A DNA stretch of 37,206 nucleotides. Source: Bacillota bacterium. GTDB lineage: Bacteria; Sysuimicrobiota; Sysuimicrobiia; Sysuimicrobiales; Segetimicrobiaceae. The notes under the pieces are model-generated. The model did not search any database. It was not told the origin of the DNA and worked only from the letters and a program-made list of their open reading frames with translations. Numbering within the stretch: the stretch's first letter is position 1; each line of letters starts with the position of its first letter. Where the stretch lies: positions 1 through 37,206 of the forward strand of contig JAJPJL010000135.1 of assembly GCA_021324255.1 (NCBI GenBank), given 5' to 3'. The position numbers were made by a program, and so were the translations under genes. Shown here piece after piece: positions 22,392-37,206 of this stretch.

Positions 22392-23408
22392 ATGATCGGC
22401 CTGGACGGCGTGGCCATGATCGCGTTTCGCAATGTCTCCAAACGGTACGCGCACGGGGCGCGGGCGGCCGTCGACGGCGTGTCGTTCGACGTGCGGGCGG
22501 GCAGCCTGTGCATGATCGTCGGGACGTCCGGGTCGGGCAAGACGACCCTGCTTCGCATCGTCAACCGCCTGATCGAGCCCACCGGCGGCGAGCTGCTCAT
22601 CAACGGACGCAACGTCCTGCGGGAAGACCCGATCGCCCTGCGCCGCCGCATCGGGTACGTGATCCAGCAGGTGGGGCTGTTTCCCCACATGACGGTGGCG
22701 GAGAACGTGCGCGTGACCGCGGAGATCGCAGGATGGACGCGCCGCCGGCTCGAGGGCCGTGCGGACGAGCTGTTGACGCTCGTGGGGCTCGCCCCCGCCG
22801 AGTACCGGCACCGGTATCCGCGACAGCTGTCCGGCGGAGAGCAGCAACGGGTCGGCATCGCGCGGGCGCTGGCGGCCGATCCTGAGATCTTGCTGATGGA
22901 TGAGCCGTTCGGGGCCCTCGACGCCATCACGCGCGACCGCATGCAGCAGGAACTCCTCCGGATCCAGCGGAGCCTGCGCAAGACGATCCTGTTCGTGACG
23001 CACGACGTGGAAGAGGCGCTGCGGCTCGGCGACCAGATCGTTGTGCTCTCGGGCGGCCGGCTCGTGCAAACCGGCAGCCCGGTCGAGCTGCTCGCCCATC
23101 CCGCCGACGACTTCGTCCGCCAGCTCGTCGGCGCCGACAGCGCCGTGCGCCAACTGGAGCACCTGCCGGTGTCGGCCGCGCTCGACCCGCACGTGACCTG
23201 GGCGGCCGCGCCGGGGGACGGCCTGCGCGTGCTCCCGGACAGCACCCTGCTCGACGCCATGCTGCGGCTGCTCGACACCGGCGCGCGCGCCCTCGCCGTC
23301 CAGCCGCCGGCCTCGTCCGCGCCGGTCGGCTACGTGACGCCGGCCAGCATCATCCGCCTGATCGCGCCCGGGCGCGGCGGGCCCGCGGCGCGCGCGGGAC
23401 ACCGGTGA
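22392..23408 (+). CDS. opuCA: Glycine betaine/choline-type ABC importer ATPase (OpuCA-like)
   Basis: ATPase of about 338 residues for an osmoprotectant or quaternary amine importer. MIAFRNVSKRYAHGARAAVDGVSF opens the nucleotide-binding domain. Walker A is GTSGSGKTT (44-52), the Q-loop region YVIQQVGLFPHMTVAENV, the signature LSGGEQQRVGIARAL, Walker B ILLMDEPFGALDAITR, and the H-switch FVTHDVEEALRLGD. The C-terminal 100 residues hold a CBS-like remnant (DSTLLDAMLRLLDTGARALAV). Start choice is uncertain. ATG 22392 has GGAG 10 bases before it, ATG 22416 gives the most canonical N terminus, and ATG 22314 has AGGGGCGA closer to the predicted transcription start. Two permeases and a binding protein follow. 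Confidence 0.9.
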   Translation: MIGLDGVAMIAFRNVSKRYAHGARAAVDGVSFDVRAGSLCMIVGTSGSGKTTLLRIVNRLIEPTGGELLINGRNVLREDPIALRRRIGYVIQQVGLFPHMTVAENVRVTAEIAGWTRRRLEGRADELLTLVGLAPAEYRHRYPRQLSGGEQQRVGIARALAADPEILLMDEPFGALDAITRDRMQQELLRIQRSLRKTILFVTHDVEEALRLGDQIVVLSGGRLVQTGSPVELLAHPADDFVRQLVGADSAVRQLEHLPVSAALDPHVTWAAAPGDGLRVLPDSTLLDAMLRLLDTGARALAVQPPASSAPVGYVTPASIIRLIAPGRGGPAARAGHR

Positions 23409-23414
23409 GCCGGC

Positions 23415-24071
23415 GTGCACTTCCTGCTTGACCCCGCCAACTACGCGCTCACCGATCCGTCGAGCGTGCCGAACCTCTTGCTGCAGCACCTCGCCATCGT
23501 CGGCACCAGCATGGCGATCGCGATCCCGGTCGCCGTGCCCGTGGGCGTCGCGATCGCGCGCTACCGGCGGTTCTACCTGCCCGTGATTACCGCGGCGGGG
23601 CTCCTGTACACGATCCCCGGCCTGGCGCTGCTCGCGCTGCTGGTGCCGGTGACCGGGCTCGATGCAACGACGGCGATCATCCCGCTCGTCCTCTACGCGC
23701 AACTGGTGCTGATCCGCAACACCGCCGCGGCGATCGACGCCGTGGACCCGGTCCTCGTCGAGACGGGATACGCGATGGGGATGACGCGCGCGCAGGTGCT
23801 GCGCCGGGTGGTGGCGCCGCTGGCGCTGCCGCTCGTGGTTGCGGGCCTGCGGGTGGCGACGGTCACCACGATCGGCATCGCCTCCCTCGCGTCGCTCGTC
23901 GGCGCCGGCGGCCTCGGCGATCTCATCTTCTCCAGCCTGCAGAACACCAACTACGACGAGGTGCTCGGCGGGGCCATCACGATCGCGGCGCTGGCCGTGA
24001 CCGTCGATCTCCTGCTGCTCGCCGTGCAGCGGGCGCTCAACCGGGGCCGCCTGCCGGTGACCGTGTCATGA
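23415..24071 (+). CDS. OpuC-type permease 1
   Basis: Inner-membrane permease of 218 residues starting at GTG, six bases after the ATPase stop. Helices include LLLQHLAIVGTSMAIAIPVAVPVGVAIA and LLYTIPGLALLALLVPVTGL. The coupling loop is ETGYAMGMTRAQVLRRVVAPLALPLVVAGLRVATV, followed by GIASLASLVGAGGLGDLIFSSL, the signature of OpuCB/OpuCD and ProW-type permeases. The YTIPGLALLALLVP helix is typical of osmoprotectant rather than amino acid systems. It works with the second permease as a heterodimer. Confidence 0.9.
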   Translation: MHFLLDPANYALTDPSSVPNLLLQHLAIVGTSMAIAIPVAVPVGVAIARYRRFYLPVITAAGLLYTIPGLALLALLVPVTGLDATTAIIPLVLYAQLVLIRNTAAAIDAVDPVLVETGYAMGMTRAQVLRRVVAPLALPLVVAGLRVATVTTIGIASLASLVGAGGLGDLIFSSLQNTNYDEVLGGAITIAALAVTVDLLLLAVQRALNRGRLPVTVS

Positions 24072-24117
24072 GAAAGCACCGGGGGACGGCGCAGGCGGCG
24101 GAGGGCGGGAGGGGTTG

Positions 24118-24780
24118 ATGCTGGCGCGCCTCGCGGCGTTCGTCGCCGATCCGGCGAACACGTTTCCGGCGCACACGGCGGAGTACGTAGCCCTCTCTGC
24201 GGCCGCCGGGACGCTCGCCGTGCTCGCCGGGACCGTGCTGGGCGTGGTGGTGGCGCGGCGTCCGGTCCTCGCGTTCGTCGCCATCAACGGGAGCGGGCTC
24301 ATGCGGGCGATCCCCGTGATCGCGTTCCTGGCGTTCGCGATCCCCTACCTCGGCTTGGGCTTCCTGCCGTCCTTGATCGCGCTCGCCGTGCTCGGCGTGC
24401 CGCCCGTGCTGCTCAACACGTGCACCGGCATCCGGGGCATCGATCCCGCGACGATCGACGCCGCGCGCGGCTGCGGCATGACGCGGTGGCAGATCGCCCG
24501 CCGCGTGCAGCTCCCGCTCGTCCTGCCGGTCGTCGCGGCGGGCGCCCGCACGGCGGTGGTGCAGATTGTGGCGACGGCGACGCTCGCCGCGTTCATCGGC
24601 GCGGGCGGCTACGGCGACTACATCCTCTCGGGGCTGTACCAGGTCGACGTCACGCAGATCCTGGCGGGAGCGATCCCCGTCACGTTGTTGGCCATCGTCG
24701 CGGAGATCGCGCTCGGCCGCCTGCAGCACGTCCTGACGCCTGCGGGGCTACGGACGCGGGGAGGTGAAACGCGCCCATAA
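24118..24780 (+). CDS. OpuC-type permease 2
   Basis: Second permease (220 residues). Features are SGLMRAIPVIAFLAFAIPYLGLGFLPSLIALAVLGVPPVLLNT and the coupling loop DAARGCGMTRWQIARRVQLPLVLPVVAAGARTAVV. It ends with LAAFIGAGGYGDYILSGL, parallel to permease 1. ATG 24118 has GGGAGGGG five bases upstream; a TTG one codon earlier is possible. The 46 bases before it contain no gene. Confidence 0.9.
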   Translation: MLARLAAFVADPANTFPAHTAEYVALSAAAGTLAVLAGTVLGVVVARRPVLAFVAINGSGLMRAIPVIAFLAFAIPYLGLGFLPSLIALAVLGVPPVLLNTCTGIRGIDPATIDAARGCGMTRWQIARRVQLPLVLPVVAAGARTAVVQIVATATLAAFIGAGGYGDYILSGLYQVDVTQILAGAIPVTLLAIVAEIALGRLQHVLTPAGLRTRGGETRP

Positions 24781-24848
24781 CGCCTCGCCACCCGCGACCG
24801 ATCGCTGCACGCGAACCGACGCCTGCGTATCTGAAGGAGGGGAGATCG

Positions 24849-25760
24849 ATGGAACGACACGGATGGGGGCGCCGCTGCCTCGCGGCGTGCGCCGTCATTG
24901 GGCTGGCCCTGGTCCTCGCCGCCGCCGGGCCGCGCGCCGCGGCGGACGCCGCGGCGATGACGCATCTCGTAGTCGGCGGGAAGCTGGACACGGAGGCGCA
25001 GCTGCTCACCAAGATGTATGTGCTCCTGCTGCGCCACGCCGGCTTCGACGTCACCGAGAAGGCGAAGCTCGGCACGAACGACATCGTCTTCAACGCGATC
25101 ACGAGCGGGCAGATCGATCTCTACCCGGAGTTTACGGCGACGGGGCTCGCCCGCCTGGGCCTCAAGAGCACGCATAACGACCGGCAGGACTACGCCGCCG
25201 TCAAGTCCGGCTTCGAACGACGATACCGCATCACCTGGCTCGACATGGCGCCGCTCAACGATACCTACGGCATCTGCTCCACGCAGGCGCGGGCGGGCCA
25301 GCTCCACGCCACGAAGGTCTCGGACCTCGCGCCGGCGGCGCCGTCGCTCACGGTCGCCACCCCGCCGGACGGCAAGACGGATCCCAACGTGCTGCCCGGG
25401 CTCAAGGGCGCGTACGGCTTCACGTTCGGCAAGGTCACCGTCCTCGATGAGGCGCTGACCTTCGCGGCGGTGCAGCAGGGCCGGGCCGACGTCAACGTGT
25501 GCTACACCACCCAGGCCTTGATCCCCAAGAACCGCTTCGTGCTGCTCGACGACGATCACCATCTGTTCCCCATCTACCATCCGGCCCCGATCGTCCGCGA
25601 CGCCTCGCTGCAAAAGGCGCCGGGGATTGCCACCGCGCTGAACCCCCTCGCCCCCAAGTTGACCACCACCGTCAGCCAGCAGCTCCAGCTGCAGGTCGTC
25701 AACGGCAAGTCCGTCACGCAGGCCGCGACGGATTGGTTGAAGAGCGTGGGGCTCCTGTAA
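24849..25760 (+). CDS. OpuCC/OsmF-like substrate-binding protein
   Basis: Exported binding protein (303 residues). A Sec signal spans about residues 8-34 (RCLAACAVIGLALVLAAAGPRAAADA), with no clear lipobox Cys. The mature part shows LVVGGKLDTEAQLLTKMYVLLLRHAGF, LGTNDIVFNAITSGQIDLYPEFTATGL, and LGLKST, the glycine betaine/choline family layout. It continues with MAPLNDTYGICSTQARA, VTVLDEALTFAAVQQGRADVNVCYTTQALI and LQVVNGKSVTQAATDWLKSVGLL. Its C-terminal domain resembles OsmF more than high-affinity OpuAC, so the ligand (betaine, choline, carnitine) is open. GAAGGAGGGGAG precedes ATG 24849. It is the last gene of the operon, before the hairpin at 25777. Confidence 0.9.
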   Translation: MERHGWGRRCLAACAVIGLALVLAAAGPRAAADAAAMTHLVVGGKLDTEAQLLTKMYVLLLRHAGFDVTEKAKLGTNDIVFNAITSGQIDLYPEFTATGLARLGLKSTHNDRQDYAAVKSGFERRYRITWLDMAPLNDTYGICSTQARAGQLHATKVSDLAPAAPSLTVATPPDGKTDPNVLPGLKGAYGFTFGKVTVLDEALTFAAVQQGRADVNVCYTTQALIPKNRFVLLDDDHHLFPIYHPAPIVRDASLQKAPGIATALNPLAPKLTTTVSQQLQLQVVNGKSVTQAATDWLKSVGLL

Positions 25761-25776
25761 CCCGCGCGTGCCGTCC

Positions 25777-25814
25777 AGCCGGGCCCGGGCCTCACGCGTC
25801 GCTCGGGCCCGGCT
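25777..25814 (+). terminator. 14-bp stem hairpin after the OpuC operon
   Basis: Bases 25777-25790 pair with 25801-25814 over 14 positions with a single G-U pair, around a 10-base loop. It lies 17 bases after the binding-protein stop and before the aminotransferase leader. No T run follows; a terminator or transcript-end stabiliser is likely. Confidence 0.6.
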
Positions 25815-25890
25815 CAAACGATCGAAGGAGGCCGTCTGCCCCTCACCGAAGCCGCGAGGTACCGCAGCATCGAATCGCGGGAGGCGTCGC

Positions 25891-27006
25891 ATGACGGACG
25901 ACATTACGCTGCACATTCCCGGGCCGATTCCCGTGGAGCCGGACGTGCTCGCGGCCATGGCGCAACAGGTCCGGCAGCACTACGGCGGCGACTGGGTGGG
26001 GTACTACCAGGCCTTCACCGAGCGGCTCCGCCGCATCTTTGCCACGGGCGGCGCCGTGTATCCGCTCCCCGCGTCGGGAAGCGGCGGCGTGGAAGCGATG
26101 ATGAGCACCCTCATCGGCAACGGCGGGCGCGTGGGCGTGATCGCCAACGGGTTTTTCGGCGACCGGGTGCTCCAGATCGCCCGCGCCCATTCCGCGCAGG
26201 CCGAGGCGCTCGAGCTGCCCTGGAACCGTCCGGCCGACCCGGGCGAGGTCCGGACCTGGCTGCGCCGCACCCGCGTGTCGGTGCTCGGCGTCGTGCACAG
26301 CGATACGTCAACGGGGGTGATCAACCCCGTGGCGGAGATCGCCGCGGCCGCGCGCGAGGAGGGCGTCGCCGTGGCGGTGGACGCGGTCTCGTCGCTGGCA
26401 GGGATGCCCGTCGAGACCGACGCGTGGGGATTGGCAGCGGTCTCGACCGCGTCGCAAAAGTGCCTCGAAGCGCCGCCGGGCCTGGCGCCGGTCGCCGTGA
26501 CCGCGGCCGGATGGGAGCTGATCGACCGGCAGCCCGAACCGGCGCGGGGATGGTATCTCAATCTCCGCACGTGGCGCGAGTACGAGCATGCCTGGCCGCA
26601 CCATCCGTATCCGGTGACCCTCGCAACCAACAACATCTTCGCGCTCGATCGGGCGCTGGAGCGGATCCTGGCCGAGGGCTTGGAGGCGAGGTTCGCGCGG
26701 CACCGCGCGGCGCAACAGGTGTTGCGCCGCGGCCTGGAGCGCCTGGGGTTCACGGTCCTGGCCGATGCCCGCTGGGCGTCCCCGACCATCACCGTGGCGT
26801 ACCCGCCCTCGGGCACCAGTCCCGATCAGATCGTGCAGGGACTGCGGTCGCGCCACGGCATCGCCATCGCCGGCGGCCTCACGCAGCTCGCCGGCAAGGT
26901 GATCCGGGTCGGCCACCTCGGCACGCAGGCGTACCCTGAGAAGATGCAGCGGGTGGTGGACGCGCTGGAGGCCTGCCTCAAGGAGCTGAGCGCCGCTCGA
27001 GCGTAG
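25891..27006 (+). CDS. Class V aminotransferase (serine-pyruvate/alanine-glyoxylate type)
   Basis: PLP-dependent transaminase of 371 residues, fold type I class V. HIPGPIPVEPDVLAAMAQQVRQHYG opens the protein. VYPLPASGSGGVEAMMSTLIGNGGRVGVI binds PLP, and VVHSDTSTGVINPVAEIAAAAREEGVAVAVDAVSSLAGMPV contains the PLP Asp and the conserved SSLAG loop. Lys190 in STASQKCLEAPPGLAPVAV is the Schiff-base lysine, and the C-terminal half ends in IRVGHLG. The family covers serine-glyoxylate, alanine-glyoxylate and 2-aminoethylphosphonate-pyruvate enzymes, so the donor is open. A GGGAGGCG site precedes ATG 25891. A second SD-like GAAGGAGG at 25823 has no start codon after it. Confidence 0.9.
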   Translation: MTDDITLHIPGPIPVEPDVLAAMAQQVRQHYGGDWVGYYQAFTERLRRIFATGGAVYPLPASGSGGVEAMMSTLIGNGGRVGVIANGFFGDRVLQIARAHSAQAEALELPWNRPADPGEVRTWLRRTRVSVLGVVHSDTSTGVINPVAEIAAAAREEGVAVAVDAVSSLAGMPVETDAWGLAAVSTASQKCLEAPPGLAPVAVTAAGWELIDRQPEPARGWYLNLRTWREYEHAWPHHPYPVTLATNNIFALDRALERILAEGLEARFARHRAAQQVLRRGLERLGFTVLADARWASPTITVAYPPSGTSPDQIVQGLRSRHGIAIAGGLTQLAGKVIRVGHLGTQAYPEKMQRVVDALEACLKELSAARA

Positions 27007-29484: not shown

Positions 29485-30714
29485 CTACCTCGCGACCGCC
29501 TCGTCGCCGAGCGCGCGTCGCACGGCCTCACGGTCATCGGGAACGTCGATCACCGGGCGCGCCGGCGCGAGGTACCGCGGCGCCTTGAGGCCGGATCCGG
29601 TCACGAGCACGACGACCCGGTCGCTCGATCGGACCAACCCGGCGACCCGGGCGGGCCGGAGTCCGGCGAACGCGGCGGCCCCTGCGGGCTCCGCCAGCAC
29701 GCCACCCCTGGTCGCGAGCGTGCGCACCGCGTCCGTGATCTCCGCGTCCGACACGGCCACGAACCCGCCCCCAGAGCGGCGGACGTCGCGCACCGCCGTG
29801 GCCGCGCACACGGGCGCCTCCACGGCGATGCCGTCCGCGAACGTGGACGCGCGCGCGGCCGTCACGGGGAGCCGCGTCTCCCAGGCCCGCTTCACGGGCT
29901 GGCATCCTTCGGCCTGCACGCCGACGAGCCGCGGCATCCGCGTGGCCGCGCCGCACGCAACGAGCTCCCGAAACCCCTTCGCCATCGCGCTCAGCGTCAC
30001 GCCGTCCCCGACCGGAACCACCACCACGTCCGGCACGGCGCGTCCGAGCTGCTCCCAGATCTCGAGCGCCACCGTCTTCTTCGCCTCCGCGGCATACGGG
30101 TTCACGCCGGTGTTGCGGCTGCACCACCCGAACGCCGCGGCGGCCCACTCCGACAACCGGAACGCCTCGCGGTATCCGCCGCGCACCTTGAGGACCGTCG
30201 CGCCCGCGGCGAGCATGAAGCCCAGCTTCGCCTCCGCCACGCCTGCGGGGACGAAGACGACGGCGCGCTTCCCGGCCGCGGCCGCGCCCACGGCGAGCGA
30301 CACGGCCACGTTGCCCGTCGACGCGCAGCTCACGGTTGCGATGCCGCGATTGAGCGCGTCCTGGAGCACGAGCGCGGTCGCCCGGTCCTTGTTGGATCCG
30401 GTGGGGCCGCGGGTCTCGTCCTTGAGCCACAGGCTCGCGATCCCGGCGGCGGCGCGCAGCGCGGGCAGCCCGAGCAGCGGAGTGTCCCCCACGGGAAGCG
30501 GGTAGCGCACGACCCCGGGATCCAGCGGGAGCAGCCCGCGGTACCGCCAGAGCCCGCGCCGCGGGTCGGCGGGTTCGGGTACGGCGTCGGGGGCGTACGC
30601 GTACTCGAGCTCGACGCAGCCGCCGTCCGCGGCGCGCATCGCCGCGTCGACGTCCGTGAACCGGCGCGTGGTGCCGTCGGCGTAGACGACGCTTGCCGCG
30701 ATCGCGCGCCCCAT
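29485..30714 (-). CDS. thrC: Threonine synthase-like PLP enzyme
   Basis: Fold-type II PLP enzyme of 409 residues that normally turns O-phosphohomoserine into threonine. RYRGLLPLDP and PVGDTPLLGLP precede the PLP lysine Lys109 in GPTGSNKDRATALV. CASTGNVAVSLAVGAAAAGKRAVVFVPAG is the phosphate-binding loop, and VVPVGDGVTLSAMAKGF and VLVTGSGLK complete the active-site layout. It ends a seven-gene operon of hydrolases, five bases after the M20 stop. Its place there raises the possibility that it acts on an amino acid released by those enzymes, like the PLP lyase YgeX beside YgeY in E. coli. A normal ThrC role is equally compatible with the sequence. Confidence 0.88.
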   Translation of the reverse strand: MGRAIAASVVYADGTTRRFTDVDAAMRAADGGCVELEYAYAPDAVPEPADPRRGLWRYRGLLPLDPGVVRYPLPVGDTPLLGLPALRAAAGIASLWLKDETRGPTGSNKDRATALVLQDALNRGIATVSCASTGNVAVSLAVGAAAAGKRAVVFVPAGVAEAKLGFMLAAGATVLKVRGGYREAFRLSEWAAAAFGWCSRNTGVNPYAAEAKKTVALEIWEQLGRAVPDVVVVPVGDGVTLSAMAKGFRELVACGAATRMPRLVGVQAEGCQPVKRAWETRLPVTAARASTFADGIAVEAPVCAATAVRDVRRSGGGFVAVSDAEITDAVRTLATRGGVLAEPAGAAAFAGLRPARVAGLVRSSDRVVVLVTGSGLKAPRYLAPARPVIDVPDDREAVRRALGDEAVAR

Positions 30715-30719
30715 CGGCC

Positions 30720-31904
30720 CTACCGGGGACCCGGTCCCCCGAGGAGGCGGGCGGCGATCGCGGCGTAGGCCCGGGCGGCCGACGCCAGCTCCGCCACCTC
30801 CACGTACTCGTCGGTGCGGTGCGCGGCATCCTCGCGGCCGGGTCCAAAGCCGATCGTGGGGATCCCGAGCCGTCCGGCCGTCGCGCTGCCGTTGGTGCAG
30901 AACGCGTACTGCGTGAGCTCGGGCCGCAGGCCCGCCTGCGCGATCCCCGCGCACGCCGCCTGCACGATGTCTGCCGCGTCGTCGAAGAACCACGCCGCCG
31001 CGAAGTTCGGCGCCGTGACACGCTGTCCGGCGTACGTCGTAAAGTCGTCCGTCGCGATGACGGCCCGGCCCGCAGCACCACTGCCGGCGAGCGCCCGGGT
31101 CATGGCGTGCCGCACCGGCCCGAGCACATCGTCCTCCGTCTCTCCGGGGAGCGTCCGCCGGTCGTACGTCGCCGCACAGCGGTCCGGGACGACCGAAAGC
31201 GCCGGATACGGCTCCGACTTCACGTCCGTGAGCACCAAGATGCCGTCGCCGAGCGCAGGATGCCGCGGCGGCGCGATCACGCGGAGCGCCCGCGCGACGT
31301 CCACCATCGCCTCCGCCGCGTTGATCCCCAGATCGGGACGGGAGGAGTGGGTCGCCCGGCCCGTCACATCGATCCGGATCTCCGCCCGGCCACGCTGGCC
31401 GCGGGCCAGCCGGAGGGAAGTCGGCTCGCAGATGATGACGTGGGTGGGACGGACCTGCTCGGCGACGTGCGCGAGCGCGGGGCCTTCCACGAGCTCCTCC
31501 GCCACGCTGGCGCACACGATCACGCGGCCGCGCTGGAGCGCCCCTCGAAGCGCCGACACGCCGTAGACGGCGGCCGCCAGCGGCCCTTTCATATCGGCGG
31601 CCCCGCGTCCGTAGAGCCGCCCGCCGACCCGCGCCCCCCGGGGATCGTGCGTCCACGCCGCAGGGTCGCTCACGCCGACGGTATCCATGTGCGCGTCCAG
31701 CAGCACGCACGGTCCGGGACCGGCGTCGATGGTGCCGGTCACGTTGCCCCAGTCATCGACCTTGACGTCGAAGCCGAGCCGCGCCATCTCGCAGCGCACG
31801 ATGCGCGCCACGTCGCCCTCGTGGCCCGAAGGGCTCGGGGCGCGCACCAGCCGGAGCGCAAACGCCGCCACGGCGTCCGCCGCGGGGGACGGGGCGGCCG
31901 TCAT
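30720..31904 (-). CDS. M20-family metal-dependent amidohydrolase (YgeY/ArgE-like)
   Basis: Di-zinc hydrolase of 394 residues cleaving an N-acyl or N-carbamoyl bond. Ligands are visible: His72 and Asp74 in LLDAHMDTVG, Asp104 in GRGAADMKGPLA, Glu136-Glu137 in VAEELVEG, and the C-terminal His in DAAHRTDEYVEV. The lid domain spans about 180-290 (RAEIRIDVTGRATHSSRPDLGINA). YgeY, succinyl-diaminopimelate desuccinylase and acetylornithine deacetylase are the closest types. ATG 31904 overlaps the upstream stop (ATGA). Next to a hydantoinase it could act as the carbamoylase or acylase that frees the amino acid; this is inference. Confidence 0.9.
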   Translation of the reverse strand: MTAAPSPAADAVAAFALRLVRAPSPSGHEGDVARIVRCEMARLGFDVKVDDWGNVTGTIDAGPGPCVLLDAHMDTVGVSDPAAWTHDPRGARVGGRLYGRGAADMKGPLAAAVYGVSALRGALQRGRVIVCASVAEELVEGPALAHVAEQVRPTHVIICEPTSLRLARGQRGRAEIRIDVTGRATHSSRPDLGINAAEAMVDVARALRVIAPPRHPALGDGILVLTDVKSEPYPALSVVPDRCAATYDRRTLPGETEDDVLGPVRHAMTRALAGSGAAGRAVIATDDFTTYAGQRVTAPNFAAAWFFDDAADIVQAACAGIAQAGLRPELTQYAFCTNGSATAGRLGIPTIGFGPGREDAAHRTDEYVEVAELASAARAYAAIAARLLGGPGPR

Positions 31905-33532
31905 GCGCCTCCTCCGGTCGGGCGCGCTTCGCGCGCAACGCCGCCCGGCAGCGATCCGGTCGGCGCGTTCCGCCGCCAGACCGGCTGTCCGGCCACCCAC
32001 ACCCCGATCACGCCCGCGGGCGGCCGCGCGGGATCCTCGTAGGTGGCGAGGTCGACGTACGCGGCCGGGTCGAGCACGACGAGATCGGCGCGCAGACCCG
32101 GACGGATCCGTCCGCGATCGCTGAGTCCGATCCGGTCGGCGGCGCGGGCCGTCAGGCGCGCAACGGCTTCGTCGGCCGGGATGAGCCGCTCGCGGAGCGC
32201 GTAGCGGCCGAGCACGCGCGCGGCCGTGCCGTACAGACGCGGGTGCGGGCGGCCGCCGAAGATGCCGTCAGACCCGACGAGGTGCAGCGGATGACGCACG
32301 ATGGCGCGCACGGTCTCCTCCGACGCATAGTGGTCGATCATCGTCGCGTCCAAGCCGGTGTCGCTCAAGAGCTCGATCACCGCGTCCCACGGATCGCGCC
32401 CGCGGCACTCTGCGATGGCCGCCAGCGAGAGGCCGATGTCCGCCGTCCGAGGGGCGGCGGCGTGCGACACGATGATCGCTGCCGGGCCGCACGCCCCGTA
32501 GATGTTCTCCCATCCCGGCAGACCGCGCGCCACGTCGCGGGCGATCGCCGCGCGCGACCCCGGATCGCGAAGGCGGGCCAGCGTCGCCCGGGGGCCGCCT
32601 TCCTGCGCCCACGGCGGCAGCAGGGCCGCGAGCAGCGTGCTCCCCGCGCCGTACGGATATTGATCGAACGTGACGTCGATCTCCAGGCGCGCGCGGTCGA
32701 GCGAGGCCAGCAGCGGCTCGACCAGGTCCGGGCGGCCGATCACCTTGAGGTGCGACAGGTGCAGCGCGGCGCCCGACCGGCGCGCGACGTCGATCATCTC
32801 TCCGACCGCCTCCAAGACCCCGACCCCTTCGTTGCGGACGTGCGGGACGATGGGGACGCCGTAGCGCGCCGCTTCTTCCGCGAGCGCCGCCAGCTCGTCC
32901 GTCGCCGCAAACGCCCCCGGCATGTAGATGAGGCCGAATGATACGGCCCGCGCGCCGCTCTCGAGCCCGATGCGGACCTGCCGCCGCATCTCGGCGAGTT
33001 CCGGAGGCGTCGGCGGTCTCCGCGAGGGGCCCATCACGAAGTCGCGGACGGCGTTGTGCCCGACCGACGGGACGAGCATCGTCGCCGCTCCCGCGGCCTG
33101 GAGCGCGTCCAGGTATTCCGGGATCGACGACCACGGCCACTCCGGCGGACCGGCGCCCTCCAGGGCCTGCAGGTACGCGCGCCGGTCCCTCCATCGAGCC
33201 CGGTCGACGGGCGCCGGGGCGAGGCCGTCCGGATTGATGAGCTCCGTCGTGAACCCCTGCGCGACTTTCGGCGCGAGGCGCGGGTCGCGAAACGGCTCGA
33301 GCGCGGAGTGCGCGTGAAGATCGACGAATCCCGGGCATACCATCAGGTTCCGCGCGTCGACCGTCTCCCGGGCGGCGGGCGCACCCAGCGAGGGCTCGAC
33401 TGCGGCGATCCGCCCGCCCCGCACGCCGACATCGGCGACGACCGGCGCGGCGTCGCCGGGGTACACGCGGCCGCCGCCGATCACCAGGTCGAACGCCGCG
33501 GCGGCGCCCTCGGCGGCGTTACGGCAGCGCAT
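31901..33532 (-). CDS. D-aminoacylase-like amidohydrolase
   Basis: TIM-barrel amidohydrolase of 543 residues, closest in layout to N-acyl-D-amino-acid deacylases. VVADVGVRGGRIAAVEP starts the small beta domain, followed by His73-x-His75 in GFVDLHAHS. PIVPHVRNEG and LHLSHLKV give later His ligands, and LVGSDG the catalytic Asp. The usual D-aminoacylase loop NCG with its zinc-bridging Cys is replaced here by INPDGLAPAPV, so the metal site or specificity differs. ADLVVLDPAAYVDLATYEDPARPPAGV is the typical C terminus. It overlaps hydantoinase by 14 bases and the M20 gene by four. Confidence 0.88.
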   Translation of the reverse strand: MRCRNAAEGAAAAFDLVIGGGRVYPGDAAPVVADVGVRGGRIAAVEPSLGAPAARETVDARNLMVCPGFVDLHAHSALEPFRDPRLAPKVAQGFTTELINPDGLAPAPVDRARWRDRRAYLQALEGAGPPEWPWSSIPEYLDALQAAGAATMLVPSVGHNAVRDFVMGPSRRPPTPPELAEMRRQVRIGLESGARAVSFGLIYMPGAFAATDELAALAEEAARYGVPIVPHVRNEGVGVLEAVGEMIDVARRSGAALHLSHLKVIGRPDLVEPLLASLDRARLEIDVTFDQYPYGAGSTLLAALLPPWAQEGGPRATLARLRDPGSRAAIARDVARGLPGWENIYGACGPAAIIVSHAAAPRTADIGLSLAAIAECRGRDPWDAVIELLSDTGLDATMIDHYASEETVRAIVRHPLHLVGSDGIFGGRPHPRLYGTAARVLGRYALRERLIPADEAVARLTARAADRIGLSDRGRIRPGLRADLVVLDPAAYVDLATYEDPARPPAGVIGVWVAGQPVWRRNAPTGSLPGGVAREARPTGGGA

Positions 33533-34916
33533 CCGCCCGCACCCCCTTCCGCGGGATCCGGCGGCCGTACCCGCGGGGGGCGCGCACGTCCGCGCCGTCG
33601 TACGCGACCTCGCCGCGAAGCACCGTGGCCGCGACCCGGCCGTGGACCTCCATCCCGTCGAACGGCGAATACCCCGCCGCGCTCCGCACACGTCCGTCCT
33701 CGATTCTCGCGCGGGCCGACGGGTCGTACACGACCAGATCGGCGTCGCCGCCCTCGACGATCGTTCCCTTGCGCGGAAACAGCCCGAAGGCGCGCGCCGG
33801 ATTTTCGGCGCAGATCCGCGCGACGTCGGCGGGGCCGAGGCGACCGGCGCCCACGCCGTACGTGTACACGAGCGGCAACAGCGTCTCGGTCCCGGGGATG
33901 CCGGGCGCGACGCGGGTGAAGTCTCCATAGTCGGTACGCTGGCGCAGCGTGTAGCCGCAGTGGTCGCTCGCCACGGTCTGGAGATGCCGCGCCTCGAGCG
34001 CCTCCCACAGCGCACGCCGGTCCTCCCCCGACCGGAGCGGCGGCGTGTGGATGAATCGCACCGCCCGCTCGGTGTCGTAGACGGAGGCGTCCGCTACGAG
34101 GAAGTGCGGGCAGGTCTCCCCGACGGCCGGGACCCCTTCCGCCCGCGCGCGCGCGACGAGGCGCGCGGATTCGGCGACGGACAGGTGCACGAGGTAGACC
34201 GGGCACCGCGTCGTCCGCGCAAACAACAGCATTCGTTGCACGGCCTCCAACTCCGCAAGCGCCGGCCGCGCCCGCCCGTGATACGCGAACCCCACGTGCC
34301 CCAAGCGGGCGAACCGCGCTCGGCTCCCCTCGACCAGCGCATCGTTCTCGCAGTGGACCATCACGATCCATCCGGCCGTCCTGGCAGCCTCCATGAGCGA
34401 CACGATCGTATCGTCATCGCAGTAAAATCCGGACGGACGATACGTGGTGTAGACCTTGGCGCTCGTAAAGCCCCGCTCCGTGAGGGCCGCCAATTCCGCG
34501 AGCTGACCGCCGGCGACATCCGTCACGATGACGTGGAGCGAATAGTCGGCGCGGCTCCGCGCCGCCTCGTCCAGCCGGGCATCGACCGCGGCCGACAGCC
34601 GTTCCCCGGCGTGTTGGTGCGCAAAGTCGATGAACGTGGTCACGCCCCCCGACAGCGCGGCCGCGCTCCCCGTGTCGAAGTCGTCCGCGGTGCGATGCGG
34701 CGCCGAGACGAGCGCAAAGTGGAGGTGCGGGTCGATGACGCCGGGAAACACGAGCGCCCCGTCCGCGTCAAGCACCGGCTCGCCCTGCGATGCGAGATCC
34801 GGACCCAGTTCGACGATGCGCCCGTCCCGGCAACGGATATGAGCCCGCCGCGCGCCCGCGGCCGTGACGACCGTCCCGCCGCGAACCAGGAGCGCGCCGG
34901 CCGGTCCCTCAGACAT
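33519..34916 (-). CDS. Dihydropyrimidinase/hydantoinase-type amidohydrolase
   Basis: Cyclic-amide hydrolase of 465 residues opening hydantoins, dihydropyrimidines or allantoin to N-carbamoyl acids. The di-zinc site is complete: His64-x-His66 in GVIDPHLHF, Lys154 in TSAKVYTTYR (the carboxylated lysine), His188 in VHCEND, His244 in VHLSVAES, and Asp318 in ASDHCGY. GETCPHFLVADASVYD and FGLFPRKGTIVEGGDADLVVYDP are characteristic of the D-hydantoinase/dihydropyrimidinase group. ATG 34916 overlaps the ATPase stop by eight bases. The stereo-loop residues do not allow me to choose between hydantoinase, dihydropyrimidinase and allantoinase. Confidence 0.92.
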   Translation of the reverse strand: MSEGPAGALLVRGGTVVTAAGARRAHIRCRDGRIVELGPDLASQGEPVLDADGALVFPGVIDPHLHFALVSAPHRTADDFDTGSAAALSGGVTTFIDFAHQHAGERLSAAVDARLDEAARSRADYSLHVIVTDVAGGQLAELAALTERGFTSAKVYTTYRPSGFYCDDDTIVSLMEAARTAGWIVMVHCENDALVEGSRARFARLGHVGFAYHGRARPALAELEAVQRMLLFARTTRCPVYLVHLSVAESARLVARARAEGVPAVGETCPHFLVADASVYDTERAVRFIHTPPLRSGEDRRALWEALEARHLQTVASDHCGYTLRQRTDYGDFTRVAPGIPGTETLLPLVYTYGVGAGRLGPADVARICAENPARAFGLFPRKGTIVEGGDADLVVYDPSARARIEDGRVRSAAGYSPFDGMEVHGRVAATVLRGEVAYDGADVRAPRGYGRRIPRKGVRADALP

Positions 34917-35808
34917 CGCCCGCCTCCTGCGGCGGATGCGCGGCGCCGGCTTCGAGCCTGCCGGCGGGGGGCCCATCCCGCGCGGCGAGCGCCGCGCGCA
35001 TCGCATCGACGAGCTCGTCCACCGTGAGCGCATCTCCGCGGACGCCGTTCCTCGCCCACGCGTGCGCCAGGCGGGTCGCCTGCGGCGGTTTCACAAACGT
35101 CTCAGCGAGCACGTCGGGGCGCGAAAACACCTCGCGCGCGGCGCCGTCCATCAAGATCCGGCCGCCGCGCAGGGCGACGACGCGTTCCGCGTACGCGGCG
35201 ACGATCGGCATCTCGTGCGTGACGATGACGATCGTGTGGCCGCGCTCCACGCGCAGGCGGACGAGGAAATCCATCACGTCGATCGACTGGCGGTAGTCCT
35301 GCCCCGTCGTCGGCTCGTCCACGACGATGACCTGCGGTCTCACGGCGAGCGTCGCGGCGATCGCCACGCGCTGCCGGAGACCCTTCGAGAGAAAGAACGG
35401 ATGCTCTCCGAAGAGGTCGGGGTGGAGGCCGGTCACGGCGGCGACCTCGCGGATGATCGCGTCTCGTTCCGCCTCCGGCACGCCGAGGTTCTTGGGCCCG
35501 TAGCCGATCTCGTCGTATACGCGCGCGTTGAAGAGTTGATGGTCGGGGTTCTGGAACACGTAGCCGATCCGCCGGACCAGATCCTTCATCACGCCCTTGG
35601 ACGCCGTGTCGATCCCGTCGACGACGACGCGCCCGCGCGTGGGGCGGAGCAGCCCCGCGAGGCACTTCGAGAGCGTGGTCTTGCCCGATCCGTTCTGACC
35701 GATGAGCGCGACGAACTCGCCGCGGGTGATCTCGAGCGTCACCCCGTCCAGGGCTCGCGTGCCGTCGGGATAGGAAAACGTCGCGTCCTCCACGCGCACC
35801 AGGGTCAT
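34909..35808 (-). CDS. ECF transporter ATPase (EcfA type, second)
   Basis: ATP-hydrolysing subunit of an energy-coupling-factor importer (299 residues). Walker A is GQNGSGKTT (37-45), with FQNPDHQLFNARVYDEIGYGPKNLG, the Q-loop block typical of EcfA. The signature reads LSKGLRQRVAIAA (LSKGL instead of LSGGQ), and Walker B is VIVVDEPTTGQD with H-switch VTHEMPIVA. The C-terminal 60 residues are a tail rich in Ala, Arg and Pro. ATG 35808 overlaps the other EcfA stop (ATGA). It forms a heterodimer with the ATPase encoded just upstream. Confidence 0.9.
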   Translation of the reverse strand: MTLVRVEDATFSYPDGTRALDGVTLEITRGEFVALIGQNGSGKTTLSKCLAGLLRPTRGRVVVDGIDTASKGVMKDLVRRIGYVFQNPDHQLFNARVYDEIGYGPKNLGVPEAERDAIIREVAAVTGLHPDLFGEHPFFLSKGLRQRVAIAATLAVRPQVIVVDEPTTGQDYRQSIDVMDFLVRLRVERGHTIVIVTHEMPIVAAYAERVVALRGGRILMDGAAREVFSRPDVLAETFVKPPQATRLAHAWARNGVRGDALTVDELVDAMRAALAARDGPPAGRLEAGAAHPPQEAGDV

Positions 35809-36665
35809 GCTCCGGCACCTCGAAGCAGGGCGTCGCCGGCGCGGATACCCTCCTCGTCCGTGAGGGGAAGCGGGCCGCGGTACAGGCCGTGCGCCCGCAG
35901 CCGGGCAAAGACCTGGGTCACCTGCGGCGGGTAGACGCCCGAGCGCTCGAGGAACTCCGGGTCCTCCAGGAACTCCCGCGGCGCGGCGGCCCGCTCGATC
36001 CGGCCGCCTCGGATGAGGACGATGCGGTCGGCCAGCGCGGCGAACGCCTCGAGGTTGTGCTCGATCACGATGAGCGTCAACCGCCGCCGCCGCCGCAGCT
36101 CGGCGCAGATCTCGACGATGAGATCCTTGCCCAGCGGGTCGACCATGGAGGTCGGCTCGTCGAGGATCAGAATCTCCGGGTCCATCGCGAGCACCGACGC
36201 GATGGCGACCCGCTGCTTTTGGCCGCCCGAGATGTCATACGGCGGCTTGTCCAGGAGGTCCGAGATCATCGTGAGTTCACTGGCCCGCCGAATACGGTGC
36301 TCGATCTCGGATTCCGGGACGCCGATGTTTTCCAGCCCGAACAGGATCTCCTCTTCGACCGTCAGCGACGTAAACTGGGCCTCCGGATCGCTGAAGACAT
36401 AGCCGACCTGCTTGGCGAGGAGCGCCGCCTCCTTTCGCTGCACCTCCTCGCCGAACACGCGGACCACGCCCGCCCGCCGTCCCGGGAACGAGTGGGGAAT
36501 GAGGCCCTTGATGGCCATCGCCAGCGTCGTCTTGCCCGCCTCGTTGGGACCGGCAATCAACGTGAACTCGCCGGCGGGGATCGTCAGGCTGATGTCGCAC
36601 ACGGCGGGGCGCGCCGCAAGATGATAGGTCCACGAGAGGCGATCGACCTCGACGGCCGGATTCAT
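35805..36665 (-). CDS. ECF transporter ATPase (EcfA type, first)
   Basis: Partner ATPase of 286 residues. Walker A is GPNEAGKTT (39-47), with Glu where Gly or Ser is usual, though GxxxxGKT is kept. YVFSDPEAQFTSLTVEEEILFGLENIGV is the EcfA Q-loop block, followed by signature DISGGQKQRVAIASVLAM, Walker B ILILDEPTSMVDPLGK and H-switch VIEHNLEAFA. The C terminus carries PPQVTQVFARL, a segment common in these subunits. ATG 36665 overlaps the EcfT stop by four bases (ATGA). Paralogous with the downstream ATPase but with its own canonical signature. Confidence 0.92.
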   Translation of the reverse strand: MNPAVEVDRLSWTYHLAARPAVCDISLTIPAGEFTLIAGPNEAGKTTLAMAIKGLIPHSFPGRRAGVVRVFGEEVQRKEAALLAKQVGYVFSDPEAQFTSLTVEEEILFGLENIGVPESEIEHRIRRASELTMISDLLDKPPYDISGGQKQRVAIASVLAMDPEILILDEPTSMVDPLGKDLIVEICAELRRRRRLTLIVIEHNLEAFAALADRIVLIRGGRIERAAAPREFLEDPEFLERSGVYPPQVTQVFARLRAHGLYRGPLPLTDEEGIRAGDALLRGAGA

Positions 36666-37206
36666 CGCAACCCGATCGTCCGGAGCGCGGCCCCGTGCAG
36701 CGGCGAGAGTTGGTCGGAGAACACCCCCATGACCTTCCCCAGCACGACGGCAACCACGAACGCGGCGGCGAGGCCGGCGCTGAGCGCCCGGTCCCGGCGC
36801 TCCACGGGGTACCGGCGCCGAAGGTAGTCCGTCCGCGGCCCGCCCCCGGCCGGGCGCCCGGACAGCGTGTACCCTCGAGCGAACAGCGCGTTGGAGATCT
36901 CGTCCGCGCGCCTCAGCGCCACGGCGAACAGCGGCACGGTGTACATCGTATAGAGCTTCGCCTTTTCGCCCACCGACATCGACTCCAGATCGAGCCCGCG
37001 GGCCTGCTCCGCTTCCCGGATCGTCCGGAAGTCCTCCATGAACATCCCGGCGCTGCGCAGCGAGAGCGCCGCCACGTAGCTGACGGCAAACGGGATCCGG
37101 AGCGAGCGCAGCGCGACGAGGGTGTCGCGCTCGCGGTTCGTGGAGAAGTAGAGGATCGCGCCGAAGAGCATCGCGACGAGCCGGCAGTAGCTGACGAACG
37201 CCCACC
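36662..37206 (-). CDS. ECF transporter transmembrane scaffold EcfT (5' end outside window)
   Basis: Membrane component that couples two EcfA ATPases to an S subunit. The frame is open to the right edge and reads WAFVSYCRLVAMLFGAILYF, a membrane helix, so the ATG at 37171 is probably internal and the gene starts beyond the window. It carries the two Ala-Arg-Gly coupling motifs, EAEQARGLD and ALFARGYTL, which dock the ATPases. A final helix, LAAAFVVAVVLGKVMGVF, lies near the C terminus. No substrate-specific S gene is visible in the window, so the vitamin, base or other ligand is unassigned; it may be encoded upstream. Confidence 0.88.
   Translation of the reverse strand, partial: WAFVSYCRLVAMLFGAILYFSTNRERDTLVALRSLRIPFAVSYVAALSLRSAGMFMEDFRTIREAEQARGLDLESMSVGEKAKLYTMYTVPLFAVALRRADEISNALFARGYTLSGRPAGGGPRTDYLRRRYPVERRDRALSAGLAAAFVVAVVLGKVMGVFSDQLSPLHGAALRTIGLR

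Follow-up and report, generated by a model that had tools for sequence, protein, structure and literature searches.

A predicted ECF importer with a new S-component family encoded beside hydantoin-ring enzymes

An operon for ECF transporter components and hydrolytic enzymes

The window (the whole stretch of 37,206 nucleotides analyzed here) is contig C18 of a 142-contig assembly from a soil bacterium that is 94.85% complete. It contains seven ORFs on the minus strand that run from the gene for EcfT to the gene for a PLP enzyme, all of which are present as previously listed (Table 1). The EcfT and EcfA genes overlap by 4 bases, as do those for EcfA and EcfA', followed by overlaps of 8 bases between EcfA' and the hydantoinase, 14 bases between the hydantoinase and the PF07969 enzyme, and 4 bases between the latter and the M20 hydrolase, and then by a gap of 5 bases in front of the PLP enzyme gene. 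These junctions agree exactly with the preliminary description of this DNA. Using Pfam and NCBIfam, we also confirmed the protein families of the operon and, thus, the joint occurrence of an ECF module, a hydantoinase, a D-aminoacylase-like enzyme, and an M20 hydrolase in one gene set, while the term "fused" that had been applied to the transporter does not hold because the genes are separate and merely overlap at their ends.

Table 1. Features of the operon and its upstream region
Feature	Position	Strand	Remarks
EcfT	36662..37206, open at contig end	-	3' two thirds of gene; PF02361 4.9e-17
EcfA, first ATPase	35805..36665	-	TIGR04520 2.9e-70
EcfA', second ATPase	34909..35808	-	TIGR04521 3.6e-75
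HyuA-type cyclic D-hydantoinase/dihydropyrimidinase	33519..34916	-	TIGR02033 408 bits
UacY-like, D-aminoacylase family	31901..33532	-	PF07969
YgeY-family M20 hydrolase	30720..31904	-	NF009555 364 bits
PLP fold-type II enzyme, ThrC-like paralogue	29485..30714	-	PF00291
S component, 211 aa	L009:480-1115; 37598-38233 in joined coordinates	-	beyond window
GntR/FCD regulator, divergent from S	L009:1245-1931	+	beyond window

The window stops at the contig end inside ecfT, and the operon is truncated at that point. The last 88 bases of C18 are identical to the first 88 bases of contig C112, the only contig to match this end at that length. In the joined sequence, ecfT extends 301 bases into C112 (L009:3-389) and encodes a protein of 281 aa. 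The join is backed by a second genus (G005; L014/L051), in which the S, T, and A genes are contiguous and in the same order. The assembly of G001 breaks at the identical point (L016), as would be expected for two close relatives in one co-assembly. Extending the contig to the right, as had been proposed when the S subunit was missing from view, placed the S gene upstream on C112, 90 bp from ecfT. The second genus has the same eight genes in the same order (S-T-A-A-HyuA-UacY-YgeY-PLP) with 71-87% protein identity; because this order recurs, the operon is more than a chance arrangement.

EcfT contains two A-R-G coupling motifs (EQARGLD and LFARGYT). The Walker A motif (GPNEAGKTT), signature (ISGGQ), and Walker B motif (LILDEP) of EcfA are intact, as are Walker A (GQNGSGKTT) and Walker B (VVDEP) of EcfA', and both ATPases score under the equivalog cut-offs of TIGR04520 and TIGR04521, respectively. 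EcfT and two ECF ATPases are, hence, encoded in one operon, as in dedicated (group I) ECF transporters.

Several other features of this genome were noted. The window's genome (G000), G001, and G005 share an AT-rich element, GTAGTATGTAGTATATCA (GTAGAATGTAGTATATCA in L051), in the interval that separates the GntR and S genes (L009:1028-1260 and the same stretch in L050 and L051). This element is a candidate promoter or operator; a scan of the region between these two genes detected no perfect palindromes in the window lineage. On contig C49 (L030:7968-12422), a second ECF operon with the order S-T-A-A ends in a gene for an ArgE/DapE-family M20 hydrolase with a 4-base overlap, and another ThrC-like PLP enzyme is encoded about 3 kb away; this may represent a further ECF importer that works with an N-acyl amino acid hydrolase. 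Finally, positions 22392-27006 of the window hold glycine-betaine-type ABC importer-like genes followed by a gene for a class-V aminotransferase whose relatives include pyridoxamine-pyruvate and 2-aminoethylphosphonate transaminases (233 and 200 bits, respectively, both below cut-off).

The S component and its hydantoin-enzyme neighbors

The S protein passed no curated family cut-off in Pfam or NCBIfam; against the Pfam ECF S model PF12822, it scored 24.3 bits, under the cut-off of 30.7. A profile of 18 S relatives matched no PDB sequence, and neither NCBIfam nor the PDB sequences linked the protein to a vitamin or metal S family. We compared an AlphaFold2 model, generated from the 18-sequence alignment (pLDDT 77, pTM 0.74), with solved structures using VIA-align. 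The top 20 rows were all ECF S components with Z scores from 15.7 to 9.7. The best match was 4huq (Z 15.7, 161 residues, rmsd 2.5), further matches included S components for folate, thiamin, biotin, pantothenate, riboflavin, and metals, and the highest-scoring protein outside this group was Lnt with a Z score of 8.2. With Foldseek alone, E-values did not fall below 0.034, and its best rows were likewise ECF S components. The model thus supports that the protein has the six-helix fold of S components. Two other identities suggested by family searches were rejected: MASE1, a Pfam match that is below cut-off in the window member, is ruled out by the structure comparison and the S-T-A-A context, and the NCBIfam match to the EspC histidine kinase (27 bits versus a cut-off of 1200) is noise.

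In a search covering one genome per species, we identified 21 loci with this S family, mostly in Anaerolineae/Chloroflexota, with three from the window's order and one from a haloarchaeon (Halocatena marina); the plasmid and viral collections contained no relative. We counted as hydantoin-ring enzymes cyclic hydantoinases, ATP-dependent HyuA/HyuB (PF01968, PF02538), and Asp/Glu/hydantoin racemases (PF01177). Based on this definition, the ECF gene set adjoins hydantoin-ring enzymes in all 17 loci with downstream sequence, and the nearest such gene lies within about 310 bp in 15 of the 17. These 17 loci span Chloroflexota, the window's own order, and a haloarchaeon, and differ in gene order and enzyme types.

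For comparison, we surveyed 248 genomes of the Anaerolineae, the class of genome G065, with a profile and identified a sister S clade with about 50% identity and its own T, A, and A' proteins, and none of its seven loci has hydantoin enzymes alongside. Fisher's test of 17/17 versus 0/7 gives about 3e-6, a hand-calculated value uncorrected for relatedness. Stretches of 264 kb from the same class, examined as a control, contain one hydantoin-enzyme gene. The hydantoin-linked S proteins separate from the sister S proteins with 100/100 support and differ conspicuously in the loop after helix 1, which reads GF-VSAFWPGQA in the former and GFGVNFFWPAIA in the latter. The preliminary description had listed two observations that would count against it, namely, homologous loci in related genomes lacking the ECF genes and an S subunit of a known vitamin type with no link to the hydrolases. 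Neither was found: among 43 genomes of the window's order, hydantoinases with at least 49% identity are confined to the four S-bearing genomes, and the S subunit located upstream belongs to no known vitamin family.

These data bear on the explanation that the importer serves a vitamin or metal and is adjacent to the hydrolases by accident. Characterized ECF importers carry vitamins and metals, and the S protein matches known S folds. Nevertheless, we consider this explanation very improbable, because the hydantoin link is complete across phyla and persists through varied gene orders and enzyme types, while it is absent from the sister clade, and because of the lack of a vitamin or metal family match described above.

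We note that the sister loci (L110-L116) have their own T-A-A genes and no common enzyme neighbors, and that the S protein of L110 has no Pfam or NCBIfam match. Separately, L066 (68-9772) has two importers in one place, with genes for carbamoyltransferases, carbamate kinase, and a Bmp/PnrA-type ABC importer immediately upstream of the hydantoin ECF locus.

The enzymes and the reductive uric acid pathway

Li et al. elucidated this pathway in 2025 (PMC12507026; comment PMC12990295). XdhD reduces uric acid to yanthine, which is reduced again and opened by YgfK or UacX with SsnA to yield ureidomethyl-hydantoin (PMC12507026). HyuA opens this compound to 2,3-diureidopropionate, the ureido groups are removed by YgeY together with YgeW or, in C. 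difficile, with UacY, a relative of D-aminoacylase, and cleavage by the PLP enzyme YgeX then yields pyruvate (PMC12507026). The sequence HyuA - UacY or YgeW - YgeY - YgeX was reconstituted in vitro, and the Chloroflexota version of the pathway uses a luciferase-family reductase (PMC12507026).

Judged by their sequences, the window enzymes match the lower half of this pathway in its UacY version at the family level, i.e., HyuA, YgeY, a UacY/YgeW-type enzyme, and a PLP enzyme are clustered. The hydantoinase conserves the metal ligands of HyuA (HxH, Lys, His, His, and Asp). The M20 protein passes the YgeY cut-off of 321 bits and keeps the catalytic residues. In the PF07969 enzyme, HxH, two further His, and the Asp are retained, but all four members compared have another Asp in place of the Cys that serves as a metal ligand in D-aminoacylase. 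The E. coli ygeX-ygeY-hyuA set, initially regarded as partly parallel, represents the same pathway (PMC12507026).

The PLP enzyme had been designated threonine synthase (thrC). Its scores against threonine synthase models (248.7 with a cut-off of 303 and 165.8 with a cut-off of 167.1) are under every ThrC cut-off, and a separate ThrC-like copy is encoded beside homoserine-pathway genes on a different contig (L035), supporting that the operon protein is a paralogue. The lysine region reads GSNKDRA in the operon type and GSFKDRG in the L035 copy. With 26% identity over 141 residues to E. coli YgeX, the enzyme is nearer to threonine synthases and was not identified as YgeX (diaminopropionate ammonia-lyase); we propose that it acts as a diaminopropionate-type ammonia lyase in the YgeX slot. 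Independently, a PLP-fold family of 486-511 aa (PF00291 4.4e-11, no NCBIfam match) is recurrent beside the hydantoin importer in other genomes (L015:5165-6664, L052:6678-8213, L065:16440-17906, and L066:8312-9772) and is a candidate YgeX replacement.

The identity of the hydantoinase is relevant to the explanation that the importer carries allantoin (5-ureidohydantoin) and that the operon serves allantoin use. Allantoin is a hydantoin that is common in soil, and the HyuA family is close to allantoinase. However, the hydantoinase passes the D-hydantoinase cut-off (408 versus 393 bits) and scores far under those for allantoinase (253 versus 358 for AllB, and 261 versus 631), no allantoate-specific gene was recognized, and the PLP lyase would be superfluous after allantoate. 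We therefore regard allantoin as an improbable substrate.

The upper half of the pathway lies beside the same importer in two relatives. L052 has YgfK-like, SsnA, and Xdh genes, together with HyuA, UacY-like, and PLP genes that are 56-62% identical to those of the window. L061/L015 (G023) has SsnA, a luciferase-family reductase, Xdh, YgeY, HyuA, two carbamoyltransferases, and carbamate kinase. The window's genome, G001, and G005 contain no SsnA orthologue (best matches 166-215 bits versus 414 in G023), no YgfK in a search that had no positive control among these genomes, and no orthologous Xdh (44% versus 74% between L052 and G023). The complete set of SsnA, XdhD, and a yanthine reductase was, thus, not recovered from these three genomes, in which the search for the reductase covered YgfK. 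Because this lineage lacks SsnA, YgfK, and an orthologous Xdh, its operon would start from externally supplied hydantoin or 5-(ureidomethyl)hydantoin (UMH).

Alternatively, the importer may carry uric acid or an intact purine (xanthine or yanthine), with the operon as the lower half of a complete reductive urate pathway whose upper half is encoded elsewhere. The gene content of L052 and L061 is in agreement with this possibility, as is the fact that the pathway begins at uric acid (PMC12507026). Still, we find it rather unlikely: the window genome and two S-bearing members of its family lack the upper-half genes, and the S family is linked to SsnA in just 2 of 17 loci but to hydantoin enzymes in all. 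We also considered the co-occurrence of S and SsnA at the genome level (13 of 18, two of them below cut-off) as support for urate, and rejected it. SsnA is present in 205 of the 248 Anaerolineae genomes (83%) with or without S, and because it is frequent regardless of S, the co-occurrence is uninformative. The SsnA neighborhoods of those genomes include a luciferase-family reductase and Xdh in several cases and S in none. As an observation in its own right, the frequency of this marker of reductive uric acid breakdown suggests that the reductive urate pathway or a related one may occur almost universally in this class.

Proposed function and comparison with known systems

Our best explanation of the locus as a whole, which on balance we favor, is that it encodes an ECF importer with a new S family for a hydantoin-ring ureide, most probably UMH or a closely related compound, along with enzymes for its degradation. 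That the importer takes up a hydantoin-type ureide is the part we hold with most confidence and consider likely, whereas UMH in particular is a tentative assignment. In the proposed scheme, the S component would bind the hydantoin and ATP hydrolysis by EcfTAA' would drive uptake. Ring opening by HyuA would give a bis-ureido acid, which in the case of UMH would be 2,3-diureidopropionate. The UacY-like enzyme would then hydrolyze the 2-ureido (N-carbamoyl) group, and YgeY would remove the second ureido group. The PLP enzyme would then eliminate ammonia from the freed diamino acid to yield a keto acid (pyruvate), and the divergent GntR/FCD protein could exert substrate-dependent control of the operon. 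The gene content, order, and overlaps, the family assignments, the conserved catalytic residues, and the neighborhoods of the S clade are observed and the S fold is predicted, whereas we infer the transported molecule, the direction of transport, the order of the reactions, and the PLP product.

Several relatives have ATP-dependent HyuA/HyuB and a racemase as neighbors, which suit general 5-substituted hydantoins better than UMH and count against UMH. Further points against our favored explanation are that the window lineage would depend on UMH from outside, that the PLP enzyme is distant from YgeX, that the UacY-like enzyme has the Asp described above, and that the S protein scores below the Pfam cut-off. 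In L053-L056, L060, and L062, these neighbors resemble amino-acid hydantoin utilization, and a D-hydantoinase with a D-aminoacylase relative follows the same logic. Accordingly, the importer might carry general 5-substituted hydantoins, derived from D/L-amino acids or damaged nucleobases, from which the operon makes free D- or L-amino acids. This is the less likely reading in our estimation, though one that deserves attention, since two ureido/amide hydrolases plus a lyase in one operon point more to a compound carrying two ureido groups than to a mono-hydantoin, and YgeY and the PLP enzyme would be left with no clear role.

The original proposal that a cyclic ureide is imported by an ECF transporter, opened, deblocked, and passed to amino-acid metabolism fits the S component found here, its non-vitamin type, and its hydantoin neighbors, from which we infer the transport step. 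Its suggestion of an undescribed nutrient-salvage system stands in part: the enzyme half is known biochemistry (PMC12507026), and the novelty lies in the S family and in the consistency with which it accompanies hydantoin enzymes. More speculatively, the S family could be dedicated to hydantoin ureides across Chloroflexota, the window's phylum, and haloarchaea, with the window lineage scavenging UMH or related ureides shed by others, such that the two halves of reductive purine breakdown are split between species and the importer supplies carbon and nitrogen in bulk instead of a micronutrient.

ECF importers have been studied as transporters of micronutrients (vitamins and metals), and an S family tied to hydantoins would broaden their substrates to nitrogen-rich ureides used as food. 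It would also provide a candidate for the uptake step that feeds the lower half of the newly elucidated pathway, which is relevant to uric acid turnover, and yields a short list of testable proteins. In the open literature searched, we found no paper that ties ECF importers to hydantoins or uric acid.

Among known systems, dedicated ECF transporters have S, T, A, and A' genes in one operon, as in the window, and the predicted S fold matches those of HmpT, FolT, ThiT, BioY, PanT, RibU, and NikM; the window system differs in that its S family is above no curated cut-off and in its predicted ligand, a hydantoin ureide as opposed to a vitamin or metal. HtsTUV (TCDB 3.A.1.31), named as an ECF-like system (PMC3654945), is of the ECF type like the window importer and may or may not represent the same family. 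Hydantoin permeases of the Mhp1 type (NCS1 family) have the same predicted job, uptake of 5-substituted hydantoins for hydantoin-using enzymes, but Mhp1 is a sodium-coupled secondary transporter (PMC4195764) with an unrelated fold and energy source.

The C. difficile cluster (XdhD-UacX-SsnA-HyuA-UacY-YgeY-YgeX; PMC12507026) has HyuA, a PF07969 enzyme, YgeY, and a PALP-family PLP enzyme in common with the window, i.e., the half leading from UMH to pyruvate, with the UacY-like enzyme assigned by its PF07969 family and matched to C. difficile UacY at that level. In contrast to that cluster, XdhD, UacX/YgfK, and SsnA are neither in the window operon nor recognizable in its genome, a ThrC-like paralogue replaces the YgeX orthologue, and the ECF importer replaces the urate permease. 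E. coli, with ygeW-ygeX-ygeY-hyuA-yqeA and ygfK-ssnA-xdhD, has clustered homologues of YgeY (34% identity) and HyuA (35%), but uses a carbamoyltransferase and carbamate kinase, has YgeX as its PLP enzyme, and has no ECF genes in the cluster. The relative G023 (L015) combines the E. coli-like carbamoyltransferase/kinase version with the same ECF importer as the window.
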